Positions 40,279 through 44,468 of a stretch of 64,000 nucleotides of DNA are shown piece by piece. A program made the position numbers and the translations under genes. Under the pieces are notes generated by a model. That model saw only the letters and a program-made list of their open reading frames with translations, made no database searches and was not told the origin of the DNA. This stretch comes from Synechococcus sp. WH 7803 (GTDB taxonomy: Bacteria > Cyanobacteriota > Cyanobacteriia > PCC-6307 > Cyanobiaceae). Position 1 is the stretch's first letter. Each line of letters starts with the position of its first letter. The DNA lies in the NCBI GenBank assembly GCA_000063505.1, contig CT971583.1:2015918-2079917 (forward strand), given 5' to 3'.

Positions 40279-40364
40279 AGCAACCCGGGGCTCGCGCTCT
40301 GTTCAACCCAACCCATCATCAGCACGTTTTGAGCAGTGCGTTGATGGTCAGGTCAACGGTCAAT

Positions 40365-40389
40365 AAAAAACCCCCTCGAATTGAGGGGG
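40365..40389 (-). terminator. Rho-independent terminator of porin 1
   Basis: Minus strand: CCCCCTC, AATTC loop, GAGGGGG, then TTTTTT. Seven-base GC stem plus U tract, 90 nt after the porin stop. Confidence 0.92.
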
Positions 40390-40478
40390 AATTCAAAGTG
40401 TGTGAAGAGTGAACTGTGTGAGGACAAGAATCTCGAGGGCCCGTACAAACGGACCCCGGAGATCGTGCTGATGTCAGA
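40390..40478 (-). ncRNA. Porin 1 3'UTR with Yfr1-like layout (candidate sRNA or decoy)
   Basis: Between the porin stop and terminator, the minus strand has a strong hairpin (40430-40463: 5-bp ATCTC/GAGAT base, then an 8-bp stem GGGTCCGT/ACGGGCCC around TTGT). It is followed by an unstructured, purine-poor stretch carrying TCCTCACAC (40416-40424) and CTCTTCACACAC, then the terminator hairpin. Hairpin, single strand with CCUCACAC, terminator hairpin is the layout of the picocyanobacterial sRNA Yfr1. Whether it accumulates as an RNA is inference. Confidence 0.45.
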
Positions 40479-42347
40479 TCAGAACTTGAAGGTGGTCTGG
40501 ATCAGACCGCCGAACACGTTGAACTGACCGTCGTAGCCCTGACCGTTCTCCACCAGGTTGTTGGTGAACTGACCCATGGGGCGGGACAGGTAGAAGATCG
40601 CAGGGGTGACCTTGATGTTGTCGGTGACCTGGAAGTTGTAGAACAGTTCGAAGACGTAGTTGCCGTCGAAGGGGGTGGAACCACAAATTTCACGCTTGTC
40701 GCTGCGCTTGCCGTCGCAGGACTCGAGGCCGGTGGTGAAGGTGGGCTGACCCACAGCGAAGCCGAGGTCGTTGCCCTTCAGGAACACGTCGTCCCACTTC
40801 AGGCCCACCATCCAGCTCTGGCTGTTGACGGGGGTGCCGCCACGCTTGTTGCTGGTGGTGTTCTGGTTGATGCCCCAGCCCAGGGAGATGGAGGGGATGA
40901 AACCAGGGTTCTCGGGCTGCCAGTAGGCGTTCAGCGCGTAGCTGTTGGTGGAAGCACCGGAGCGCTTCTTGGGATCACCATTGGGGACGGTGTACTTGGT
41001 GCCGTCAACGTTGACAGTCTTGGTGGGGACGTAGAAGCAGTTGTTGTTCCACTTGTCCTGCTTGGCGAACTCGGTGCCACGACGGAAGCCGTTGCCGCTG
41101 TCGCACTGGCCGTAGCGGTAACCGAAGGCCACACCCCACTGAGGACCGGCGTAGCCGACCTGAGCCAGGAAGCTGGCTTCGGAGTTATCGGTGAGGAAAC
41201 CACCAGTGGTGGGATCGGTGGAGCTGCCGTTGCCGTCGTCAGCCACATAGTTCACAGACACGCTGAAAGCGTTCTGACCCTTGTCGACGCTCTGCTTCCA
41301 GTAAGCACCGATCAGCTGTCCGGTCTCCTTGTTGTAGACACCGCTGGTGCCCATCAGAGCGGTCCAGTCGAGGATCTTGGTGGCACCCTTGTTGTAGACA
41401 GAGGGCCAGAGAGCGATGGACTCGGTGTTACGAGCCAGAGCACCGGCAACCACGGTGAACTCTTTGCCGACCGGGAACTTGTAGAACAGACGGTCGAGGG
41501 TGACGATGTTGGCCTTCTCGTCCTGCACACCGGAATCGGTGGCGATGTCGAGAGCGGTGAGGTTCACGCCGGAACCACCGAAGGCGTTGCCGTTGCCGCT
41601 CTTGCTGAAGTTACCGGTACGCAGACGGGCAACCAGCAGGTCCTTGCCGGTGAAGCTGGTGTTCAGCTTCAGGCGCTGGTCATAGTTGAAGGTCCAGGCG
41701 CCGTAGTTGCGGTTGTAGGCGTTGGCACCACCGCGGGTTCCGTTCTTCTTGAAGACGGTGTTGCGGTTCTTGCGCTCCACCTTGCCGATCTGCTTGACAG
41801 CGTCAGCAGAGTCGTCGAAGTAGGTGGCGTTGGTGTCGTAGATGTACTTGGAACCGTCGTCACCGCCGGCGTTCACAGCACCGGTCACGAAGGTGGTTTG
41901 ACCCTTCAGCTTGGTGGTGGTGGTGAACTGGGTGGCTTCCAGTTCGCCCACGCGGGCTTCCAGACCGTCCACGCGGCCCTTGAGGATGGCGAGTTCCTTC
42001 TCGAACTCCTTCATCAGACGCTTGAGCTCGTCGGTCACTTCGGTGACGCGGTCGAGACAGGCGTTCAGCAGGGCAGCCGCTTCAAAGCGGGTCATGGCCC
42101 GGTTGCCGCGGTAGGTGCCGTTGGGGTAGCCAGCGACGCAGCCGTAGCGCTCGATCAGGTTGCTCAGTGCCTGGTAAGCCCAGTCGGTGGGATACACATC
42201 AGAGAACTGAGTGATGCTGGTGACCTGCTCGCCGGACTCGGCGTAGTCGGACACACCGTTGATGTTCAGCTCAGTGGCGTTGGCGGCCATGGGAGCCAGG
42301 AGGCCCAGGGCTGCAGGTGCCACCAGCAGTTGCTGGAAGAGTTTCAT
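40479..42347 (-). CDS. SLH-domain outer membrane porin 1 (Som/iron-uptake porin type)
   Basis: 622 residues from ATG 42347 (RBS GAGGA 7 nt upstream). Signal peptide KLFQQLLVAPAALGLLAPMAANA, then an SLH domain (VTSITQFSDVYPTDWAYQAL...GYPNGTYRGNRAMTRFEAAALLN), a coiled coil (VTEVTDELKRLMKEFEKEL, DGLEARVGELEA), and a C-terminal beta barrel of about 450 residues ending in aromatic Phe (TTFKF). SLH binds the peptidoglycan-linked polysaccharide; the barrel lets solutes, and in some homologues iron, cross the outer membrane. Tandem with porin 2. Confidence 0.95.
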   Translation of the reverse strand: MKLFQQLLVAPAALGLLAPMAANATELNINGVSDYAESGEQVTSITQFSDVYPTDWAYQALSNLIERYGCVAGYPNGTYRGNRAMTRFEAAALLNACLDRVTEVTDELKRLMKEFEKELAILKGRVDGLEARVGELEATQFTTTTKLKGQTTFVTGAVNAGGDDGSKYIYDTNATYFDDSADAVKQIGKVERKNRNTVFKKNGTRGGANAYNRNYGAWTFNYDQRLKLNTSFTGKDLLVARLRTGNFSKSGNGNAFGGSGVNLTALDIATDSGVQDEKANIVTLDRLFYKFPVGKEFTVVAGALARNTESIALWPSVYNKGATKILDWTALMGTSGVYNKETGQLIGAYWKQSVDKGQNAFSVSVNYVADDGNGSSTDPTTGGFLTDNSEASFLAQVGYAGPQWGVAFGYRYGQCDSGNGFRRGTEFAKQDKWNNNCFYVPTKTVNVDGTKYTVPNGDPKKRSGASTNSYALNAYWQPENPGFIPSISLGWGINQNTTSNKRGGTPVNSQSWMVGLKWDDVFLKGNDLGFAVGQPTFTTGLESCDGKRSDKREICGSTPFDGNYVFELFYNFQVTDNIKVTPAIFYLSRPMGQFTNNLVENGQGYDGQFNVFGGLIQTTFKF

Positions 42348-42362
42348 TGAATTCCTCACACC
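42348..42362 (-). promoter_or_regulatory. Yfr1-complementary ribosome binding site of porin 1
   Basis: The mRNA reads GGTGTGAGGAATTCA just before the ATG. GTGTGAGGA is perfectly complementary to TCCTCACAC, the core of the Yfr1 motif ACTCCTCACAC. It contains the Shine-Dalgarno, so pairing would block initiation, as reported for som mRNAs in Prochlorococcus. Confidence 0.75.
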
Positions 42363-42452
42363 AAAAATTGAGGGATATGGACACAAGTGTCCGAACAGAA
42401 CTTAAAGGTGTGTCGATCGAATGCACAGGAGGCCGCTGCACAAGCTGTCCAC
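42363..42452 (-). other. Upstream region of porin 1
   Basis: Holds the porin 1 leader (CCCTCAATTTTTGG next to the RBS, shared with porin 2) and presumably its promoter, since the porin 2 terminator lies just upstream. No confident -10/-35 pair is seen. Confidence 0.4.
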
Positions 42453-42482
42453 AAAAAACCCCTCCGCCATGCAGCGGAGGGG
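42453..42482 (-). terminator. Rho-independent terminator of porin 2
   Basis: Minus strand: CCCCTCCGC, TGCATG loop, GCGGAGGGG, then TTTTTT. Nine-base perfect stem. A second small hairpin (GAGTCTC/GAGACTC-type, about 42488-42503) precedes it in the 3'UTR. Confidence 0.93.
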
Positions 42483-42535
42483 CAAAAGAGTCTCAGGAGA
42501 CTCGTGTTGATTGAGGGGAATTGAACTGGGTTCGA

Positions 42536-44308
42536 TCAGAACTTGAAGGAGGTCTTCACCAGACCGCCGAACTGATTGAAGGAATCACCCTGAGTGACTG
42601 AACCCAACGGACGGCTGAGATAGAAGAGTGCTGGCGTCACCGAGATGTTGTCGGTGACCTGGAACTGATACCAGAACTCCCAGGCGTATTGACCGTCGCG
42701 GGTGAAACGGTCTTCTGCCGTTGAGGAGGACACACCGTCCACATCGTCTCCACTCAGACCAAGCGAGGTCACGAAGCCCTGCTGTCCCACAGCCATACCG
42801 GCGTTGTTGCCCTTGAGGAACACATCGCTCCATTGCAGGCCCACATACCAGGACTGAGATGTGGCGGATTCAAAGTCGTAGCCAAGCAGCTGAGGATCAG
42901 CACCGTCGCCGCCACCGAAGTAGTCGTTGCCATTGGTGCTGTTCAGGCCCCAACCCAAACTGATGGAAGGAATGAAGCCAGACTCTTCAGGCTCCCACCA
43001 GGCACTTACAGCAACGTTGTTGCTGTTGCCGAGCAGGCCCACCTGGGTGGCCAGCGGGGTTCCGGTGCTTTGGTACAGCGTTCCCCAGTTGCCGGAGGAA
43101 TAGGTGTAAGCCGCAGCCACACCCCAGCCGGAATCGGCATAAGCGAGCTGAACCGTGCCCGTACCAGCCGCTGCATCGGTGGCGATACCGCCGCTGGTGG
43201 GATCGGTTTCATTGCCGTTAAACGACACGTAGTTGGCACTCACGCTGAAACCGTTGTTGCTCCACCAAAGACCAGCACCAGGTCCAAGATTCAAGCTGTA
43301 AGCACCGGGAGCACCGGCGTAGGTGAAGAAGTCGAGAACCGTGTCTGCCGGGTAAGCACTCGGCCACACAGCAAGCATGTCGTCCTGGCGGACGAAGCCA
43401 CCGGCTGTGACAGTGAAATCACTTCCGAGGGGGAACTGATAGAAGAGTCGATCAATCGACACTGCATTGGACTTCGGCCCTTCTTCAAAGGCCACTTCCA
43501 AACCGGAGGCCGTCGCGAAGGTTCCTCCACTCAGGGCGTCGTAGATGCCTGAGGAAGCAGAGAATCCAAAGGCGCTGTTGGTGAAGTTGCCCGTGCGCAG
43601 CCGGGTGCGCAGCAGATCCTTACCGGTGAAACTGGTGTCGAAGTCGATCTTCAGGTCGTAATTGAAGACGGCGGCACCGAGGTTGTTATTGGCCTGAAAG
43701 GCCATGGTGCGCTTGCTGCCAACGCCGGATTCAGCTTTGGTGAGTTGCCGTCCGAATTGCTGATCAACCTTGGCGTTACCGCCAAACGTGTTGGCACCGG
43801 TCACGAAGGTGGCCACACCACTCATCTTCGTGGTGGTGGTGAACTGGGTGGCTTCCAGTTCGCCCACGCGGGCTTCCAGACCGTCCACGCGGCCCTTGAG
43901 GATGGCGAGTTCCTTCTCGAACTCCTTCATCAGACGCTTGAGCTCGTCGGTCACTTCGGTGACGCGGTCGAGACAGGCGTTCAGCAGGGCAGCCGCTTCA
44001 AAGCGGGTCATGGCCCGGTTGCCGCGGTAGGTGCCGTTGGGGTAGCCAGCGACGCAGCCGTAGCGCTCGATCAGGTTGCTCAGTGCCTGGTAAGCCCAGT
44101 CGGTGGGATACACATCAGAGAACTGAGTGATGCTGGTGACTTGGTCGCGGCTGGCAGCAGAACGGCCCTTTTTGGACTTGGCGGTGTACTCAGACACCCC
44201 CTCGATATTAAGCTCAGTGGCTGAAGCGGGTCGGATTGCATCAGAGGCCAGGGGAGCCAACAGCCCAAGGGCTGCAGGTGCCACCAGCAGTCGCTGGAAG
44301 AGTTTCAT
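42536..44308 (-). CDS. SLH-domain outer membrane porin 2 (Som/iron-uptake porin type)
   Basis: 590 residues from ATG 44308. Signal peptide KLFQRLLVAPAALGLLAP, cleavage near SATA or SDA. It has the same SLH domain and coiled coil as porin 1, encoded by about 311 identical bases, then a divergent beta barrel ending KTSFKF. Between signal and SLH it has an extra basic insert (TAKSKKGRSAASRDQ) that porin 1 lacks. Likely a paralogous channel with different surface loops. It has its own terminator, so it is separately transcribed or processed from porin 1. Confidence 0.95.
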   Translation of the reverse strand: MKLFQRLLVAPAALGLLAPLASDAIRPASATELNIEGVSEYTAKSKKGRSAASRDQVTSITQFSDVYPTDWAYQALSNLIERYGCVAGYPNGTYRGNRAMTRFEAAALLNACLDRVTEVTDELKRLMKEFEKELAILKGRVDGLEARVGELEATQFTTTTKMSGVATFVTGANTFGGNAKVDQQFGRQLTKAESGVGSKRTMAFQANNNLGAAVFNYDLKIDFDTSFTGKDLLRTRLRTGNFTNSAFGFSASSGIYDALSGGTFATASGLEVAFEEGPKSNAVSIDRLFYQFPLGSDFTVTAGGFVRQDDMLAVWPSAYPADTVLDFFTYAGAPGAYSLNLGPGAGLWWSNNGFSVSANYVSFNGNETDPTSGGIATDAAAGTGTVQLAYADSGWGVAAAYTYSSGNWGTLYQSTGTPLATQVGLLGNSNNVAVSAWWEPEESGFIPSISLGWGLNSTNGNDYFGGGDGADPQLLGYDFESATSQSWYVGLQWSDVFLKGNNAGMAVGQQGFVTSLGLSGDDVDGVSSSTAEDRFTRDGQYAWEFWYQFQVTDNISVTPALFYLSRPLGSVTQGDSFNQFGGLVKTSFKF

Positions 44309-44323
44309 GGAATTCCTCACACC
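44309..44323 (-). promoter_or_regulatory. Yfr1-complementary ribosome binding site of porin 2
   Basis: Leader ends GGTGTGAGGAATTCC before the ATG, the same GTGTGAGGAAT as porin 1, with nine bases complementary to the Yfr1 core. The upstream CCCTCAATTTTTGG is also identical to porin 1. Confidence 0.75.
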
Positions 44324-44468
44324 AAAAATTGAGGGAACACGCCGTAGCGATAGTGAAAATCTGTTGCATTACCCACCCTTAACCAGGGCACTTGTGACGC
44401 TCTTTCGCGTGACTTGTATCAATTCGATCACTTTGCGCCCCAAACGGTGCTTTTAACTACCAAAAAAT

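Follow-up and report, generated by a model that had tools for sequence, protein, structure and literature searches.

A Yfr1-like exposed motif recurs in porin 3′UTRs of Cyanobiaceae and may provide negative feedback on porin synthesis

Introduction

Porins are major outer-membrane proteins of picocyanobacteria, and until 2019 two porins were the only verified targets of the sRNA Yfr1 in Prochlorococcus (PMC6778093). The window, a 64,000-nucleotide stretch of the Synechococcus sp. WH 7803 genome, contains two tandem porin genes on the minus strand, and the 3′UTR of porin 1 carries a word that is also found at the core of Yfr1. This locus raises the question of whether a porin mRNA can act on porin ribosome-binding sites (RBSs) in the manner of Yfr1, or whether the likeness has another origin. 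In the mainly open-access literature searched, no porin 3′UTR is described as carrying a Yfr1 motif.

Layout and fold of the porin 1 3′UTR

The porin genes and the elements of the 3′UTR are as follows.

42536..44308, minus strand: porin 2 CDS, an open reading frame in tandem with porin 1
40479..42347, minus strand: porin 1 CDS (SLH/OprB-type som porin), an open reading frame with relatives throughout Cyanobacteria
40479-40481, minus strand: porin 1 stop codon, from sequence
40365..40478, minus strand: porin 1 3′UTR, from the stop codon to the end of the terminator U-tract, from sequence, with a fold z of -5.2
40429..40464, minus strand: strong upstream hairpin, from the fold, formed in three relatives too
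40416..40424, minus strand: motif A, UCCUCACAC, single-stranded, complementary to both porin RBSs and to the Yfr2 5′ end
40398..40409, minus strand: motif B, CUCUUCACACAC, single-stranded, from folds, pairing and close relatives
40365..40389, minus strand: intrinsic terminator (CCCCCUC/GAGGGGG plus U6), from sequence and fold

Read on the minus strand, the porin 1 mRNA continues past its stop codon with UCUGACAUCAGCAC, the strong hairpin, UCUUGUCCUCACACAGUUCACUCUUCACACACUUUGAAUU, and the terminator, the last of which comprises a stem (40371-40389) and a U-tract (40365-40370). The 114-nt 3′UTR folds at -41.3 kcal/mol, with the z score taken against dinucleotide shuffles, and the two motif segments, TCCTCACAC (motif A at 40416-40424) and CTCTTCACACAC (motif B at 40398-40409), have unpaired fractions of 0.77 and 0.96 in this fold. 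The Yfr1-like architecture described in an earlier note on this DNA, a hairpin, a single-stranded CCUCACAC, and a terminator, is borne out by both sequence and fold, and the positions given there are right to within a base or two (the hairpin was placed at 40430-40463).

The same note had regarded a chance match of nine bases as unlikely, and the genome agrees: TCCTCACAC occurs only 10 times on both strands of the 2,366,980-base one-contig genome (4.73 Mb of strands), so 0.00024 copies are expected in 114 nt from the genome-wide frequency. One of the ten copies lies in Yfr1, two are antisense of the porin RBSs, two are antisense of the 5′ ends of Yfr2/Cyano-1, and four further ones look coding, which leaves the porin 1 3′UTR as the sole remaining copy. 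The 3′UTR of porin 2 itself (about 42446-42535) lacks CCTCACAC. Because a lone low-probability match that is noticed post hoc is unconvincing, relatives were examined.

Complementarity to porin ribosome-binding sites

The proposed partners of motif A are the two porin RBSs, both expected Yfr1 target sites identified from sequence and from a comparison of leaders.

42353..42361, minus strand: GUGUGAGGA at the porin 1 RBS
44314..44322, minus strand: GUGUGAGGA at the porin 2 RBS

As had been suggested, both RBSs carry the exact complement, GTGTGAGGA, and nine contiguous pairs are possible between motif A and either of them; motif B can form nine pairs with leader 1. When leader 1 and the 3′UTR are folded together, exactly the UCCUCACAC:GUGUGAGGA duplex forms (-62.3 kcal/mol, vs -54.7 kcal/mol apart). 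The core duplex is worth -14.2 kcal/mol, with opening costs of 1.6 for the 3′UTR, 7.7 for leader 1, and 6.6 for leader 2; the leader sites are partly folded, and roughly -5 kcal/mol net is left from the core duplex. Duplex energies of whole segments, for which the fractions of shuffles as good were 0.10 and 0.26, are uninformative because long gapped duplexes dominate them.

The leader word is nearly invariant. Of 150 porin leaders, 147 have GTGTGAG just 5′ of the start codon, and almost all porins examined have GTGTGAGG, the complement of the motif, at the RBS, as do most of those examined from other cyanobacterial families. In E. coli, the 5′UTR of the porin PMM1121 is repressed several-fold by Yfr1 (PMC6778093), and in Nostoc a porin homologue is among the predicted Yfr1 targets (PMC6974561).

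A separate observation concerns the leaders themselves. CCCUCA lies a few bases 5′ of the RBS UGAGG in both porin leaders (42353-42374 and 44314-44335, minus strand), and pairing of the two words in a local hairpin could mask the Shine-Dalgarno sequence. Of 126 distinct leaders, 61 have CCTC[AT] at a distance of 2-14 nt upstream of GTGTGAGG, and three have the control word CTCC there.

Recurrence of the motif in porin 3′UTRs

Porin 3′ ends were collected by protein similarity, blind to the motif, to give 111 non-redundant regions of 110 nt. CCTCACAC is present in 19 of these, vs 0.52 in dinucleotide shuffles (at most 4 of the 111 in any of 500 shuffles), and only words from the T-tract of the terminator outnumber it among 8-mers; neither its reverse nor its reverse complement is found in any of the 111. 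Among 158 non-redundant ends of other genes from the same loci there is no copy (Fisher p 1.9e-8 vs porin ends). The exact motif is missing from the other 92 regions, including all 13 Prochlorococcus representatives, and many species in the genus to which the window belongs have no motif in their porin 3′UTRs. With one G-U pair allowed, the count rises to 27, vs 2.9 expected. In the UTRs that lack the exact motif, single variants that preserve pairing through G-U number 9 vs 1.1 expected, and non-pairing variants number 6 vs 3.4. A search for second copies gave 8 vs 1.7 expected, but its non-pairing control was up as well (5 vs 1.7), and this excess is not specific to pairing. Outside Cyanobiaceae, the exact motif is found in one of 20 porins (L363) and TCTCACAC in two (L347 and L365), all small numbers.

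An independent scan of 400 Cyanobiaceae genomes for a porin ending, AAGTTCTGA, followed after 10-40 nucleotides by CCTCACAC returned 77 matches, spread over 66 genomes and 14 of 59 genera; the backward control returned 2. By tblastn, 65 of the 66 distinct matches examined are porins, and the remaining one has a porin-like ending too. The copy in the window is too far from the stop codon for the pattern to find, which makes the scan conservative. Judged by these counts, the porin 1 3′UTR feature is real, non-random, and recurrent.

Further sites with Yfr1-type motifs were encountered among the relatives. Four TCCTCACAC sites (L143, L144, L200, and L216), from four freshwater genomes, lie in a conserved, structured intergenic RNA that ends in GCACCATTCCTCACACC and a terminator; it scores 28-30 bits with the Yfr1 model in two of them, which is below threshold, and is a candidate second Yfr1-like sRNA. 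Two other conserved elements, one at L427 and L431 and one at L421 and L440, carry CTCCTCACAC just 5′ of a terminator in two marine genomes from a single genus, and the L427/L431 element, with its GTCGGC/GTCGAC stem, may be the Yfr10 of marine Synechococcus. Near the TCCTCACAC sites L189, L191, L188, and L204, a repeated leader-like sequence, GGCTGGTGACAGGTCAA...GCCTCCTCACAC...ATGACC, places the motif 5′ of start codons in Vulcanococcus-type genomes. Other sites that were first taken for Yfr10-like RNAs proved to be antisense to the 5′ ends of Yfr2/Cyano-1.

Presentation of the motif

In 60 non-redundant motif-bearing 3′UTRs, the motif is on average 0.93 unpaired, vs 0.43 for the other 8-mers in those UTRs. 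CA-rich words are often unpaired in any case, and the flanks were therefore also shuffled around a fixed motif; the minimum-energy fold leaves the motif fully unpaired in 80% of the real sequences of these 60 UTRs, vs 39% with shuffled flanks. Two arrangements recur: the motif lies in a spacer between a hairpin and the terminator, as in Yfr1 and in the window, or in a loop on a stem, as reported for Yfr10 (PMC6778093). Hairpin loops with a closing stem of six or more consecutive pairs hold the motif in 26 of the 60 (2.7 expected; simulated maximum, 11), and the sequences of the stems that bear these loops are unrelated between genera. What is conserved across these predicted and varying structures is the word together with its exposure. 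The earlier note had looked to conservation of the motif in porin 3′UTRs; recurrence far above chance was found across Cyanobiaceae, and conservation of position or of one structure was not.

Two explanations other than a Yfr1-type element can be weighed at this point. The spacer before the terminator is rich in C, A, and T and might yield CCTCACAC by accident, an idea that draws on the many porins without the motif and on the close relative L140, which lacks the first motif; set against 19 occurrences where 0.5 are expected, 77 scan matches vs 2 for the control, the absence from all 158 other gene ends, and the recurrent presentation in loops, it is extremely improbable. Alternatively, the motif may be an inconsequential target or decoy that serves as a site for an RNA-binding protein or in stability of the mRNA 3′ end, its likeness to Yfr1 being incidental. 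A single-stranded pyrimidine- or CA-rich stretch is a possible site for a protein or a nuclease, and the CA-rich flanks do vary, yet the word found in excess is perfectly complementary to the near-invariant RBS of porins, and single variants compatible with G-U pairing exceed non-pairing ones; we regard this explanation as improbable.

Close relatives and the fit to Yfr2

Changes in close relatives bear on which RNA the element is matched to. In L140, motif A is lost, and the hairpin, with an altered stem sequence, and motif B are kept; motif B is retained in all close relatives examined, even without motif A. The changes seen in motif B (CTCTTCACAC, CTTTTCACAC, and CTCTTTACAC), which are small in number, are all compatible with G-U pairing, as is TCCTCACAT in L126. 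In L118 and L119, CCTCACAC is kept though the leader reads GTGTGAGA. The base 3′ of the motif is an A at 46 of 64 sites, yet the facing leader base is mostly G, and a covariation test showed no dependence of this base on the porin's own leader; the element is therefore untuned to its own RBS beyond 8-9 bases. Position -2 is associated with the own leader (26 of 66 pairable vs a permutation mean of 16.3), by a statistic that ignores relatedness.

A second candidate partner is Yfr2, the sRNA that neutralises Yfr1. Two Cyano-1 (RF01701) RNAs are encoded in the window's genome.

G000:C1:2191549-2191618, plus strand: Cyano-1 (RF01701) at locus L009, 5′ end GTGTGAGGA
C1:901841-901908, minus strand: Cyano-1 (RF01701) at locus L001, 5′ end GTGTGAGGA

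The 5′ GTGTGAGGA of both is perfectly complementary to the Yfr1 core, and Cyano-1 is taken as Yfr2 from this 5′ motif and from the Yfr2 literature, the Rfam name being silent on the matter. A glutamine-II riboswitch (RF01704, 48.3 bits; L001 553-607, minus strand) lies close to one of the two copies.

On this alternative, the 3′UTR would act as a sponge that binds the 5′ end of Yfr2, such that a rise in porin mRNA lowers free Yfr2, raises free Yfr1, and reduces porin translation, an indirect negative feedback. Every one of the 38 genomes searched has Cyano-1. In these genomes, the window's included, the Yfr2 5′ end reads GTGTGAGGAGTG and is complementary to the porin 1 3′UTR, which therefore suits Yfr2 as well as it suits the RBS: motif A pairs at -15.0 kcal/mol with Yfr2 and with the leader alike, and motif B, which forms 10 pairs with the Yfr2 5′ end, one of them G-U, pairs at -16.4 kcal/mol with Yfr2 vs -13.9 kcal/mol with leader 1. 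The retention of motif B where motif A is lost and of CCTCACAC in L118 and L119 also fits this partner. Yfr2 relieves the repression of a porin reporter by Yfr1 in E. coli, and RNase E cleaves Yfr2 unless it is bound by Yfr1/10 (PMC6778093). On the other side, the outer bases give no consistent extension of the match to Yfr2, and the element is specific to porins (65 of 66 matches) rather than following abundant mRNAs generally, which suits direct feedback equally or better. The equal fit to Yfr2, the untuned leader base, and L118 and L119 together keep the sponge model viable, and we consider it possible though rather unlikely. Both the direct and the sponge model predict negative feedback on porin synthesis.

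A model for direct porin feedback

The best explanation, one that we hold with about even confidence, is that the porin 3′UTR contains a selected base-pairing element that mimics Yfr1/Yfr10 and would confer negative feedback of porin mRNA through the porin RBSs. In this direct model, CCUCACAC would be held single-stranded, by the spacer between hairpin and terminator here and by a hairpin loop in many relatives, and would pair with GUGUGAGG, the porin RBSs being the most likely direct partners. Two routes can be envisaged: a stable RNA may be processed from the 3′ end to target porin 1 and porin 2 in trans, or the 5′ and 3′ ends may pair within or between porin mRNAs. By either, RBS pairing would block ribosome access, and porin synthesis would drop as porin mRNA rises, parallel to the action of Yfr1. 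That the motif is present, exposed, recurrent, and complementary to the porin RBSs is observed; pairing in cells, the release of an RNA, and the sign of the effect are inferred. Weighing against the direct model are the 92 porin 3′ regions devoid of the exact motif, the loss of motif A in L140, the poor tuning to the own leader, and the cost of opening the partly folded leader sites. The interpretation offered in the earlier note stands in part: its architecture, its RBS complementarity, and the recurrence of the motif hold, with the correction that the motif recurs in exposed form and not in one structure.

Somewhat more tentatively, porin mRNAs throughout Cyanobiaceae, and possibly here and there in other cyanobacteria, may carry in their 3′UTRs a Yfr1 mimic that is mobile in structure and fixed in sequence, by which porin transcripts would join the Yfr1-Yfr2 network and place outer-membrane permeability under RNA feedback. 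If so, one element would couple three layers, its own RBS, the RBS of the sister porin, and Yfr2, and the regulated message would also encode its regulator, a feedback on membrane permeability that is built in. With such an arrangement, the Yfr1/Yfr2 network would in effect keep count of porin mRNA.

Comparison with known systems

The porin 1 3′UTR shares with Yfr1 (RF01116) a hairpin, a single-stranded UCCUCACAC core, a terminator, and the same target word at porin RBSs. It differs in that the core is preceded by UUG rather than AC and in its flanks, and whereas Yfr1 is an independent gene, usually between guaB and trxA (PMC6778093), the element here lies 15-112 nt past a porin stop codon. 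The Yfr1 model has no match in the window at its gathering score and none in 40300-42450 at E values up to 10, and the true Yfr1 of this genome lies at C1:1467225-1467281 (71.6 bits, full score). Membership in the Yfr1 family was rejected because the 3′UTR gives no model match and is not a separate gene. Identity with Yfr10 was rejected also, the 3′UTR having UGUCCUCACAC instead of the full undecamer ACUCCUCACAC. Yfr10 and Yfr18 of Prochlorococcus are dissimilar RNAs apart from the Yfr1 undecamer that both carry (PMC2518516, PMC6778093); the loop-on-stem motif of Yfr10 is matched in 26 of 60 porin 3′UTRs, unlike in the window, where the motif lies between hairpins. In MED4, Yfr10 and Yfr18 adjoin genes of the Yfr2 family, not porins, whereas here the motif lies within a protein-coding transcript. 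The Yfr1-motif RNAs so far described as sRNA genes would thus gain a class that is borne on mRNAs.

A parallel among cyanobacteria is the ApcZ-type sRNA, derived from the 3′ end of an mRNA. It is a precedent for functional sRNA release from such a 3′ end; it belongs to a different operon, has different targets, and is reported to serve cross-regulation of photoprotection, not porin feedback (PMC8136909). The icaR mRNA of Staphylococcus aureus similarly has a C-rich 3′UTR motif that is complementary to its own Shine-Dalgarno region (PMC3868564), in a long 3′UTR for which cleavage by RNase III was shown; the porin 3′UTR is short, with predicted pairing to two porin targets. OppZ and CarZ of Vibrio cholerae (PMC7398697) are likewise encoded in 3′UTRs, with predicted pairing to their own transcript and a proposed negative feedback. 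In common with these, the porin element lies in a 3′UTR that ends at the mRNA terminator and is complementary to its own translation start; for OppZ and CarZ, RNase E processing and repression are proven, whereas for the porin element both are proposals. Unlike in OppZ and CarZ, the pairing site in the porin system is also that used by a global sRNA, Yfr1, in Prochlorococcus.
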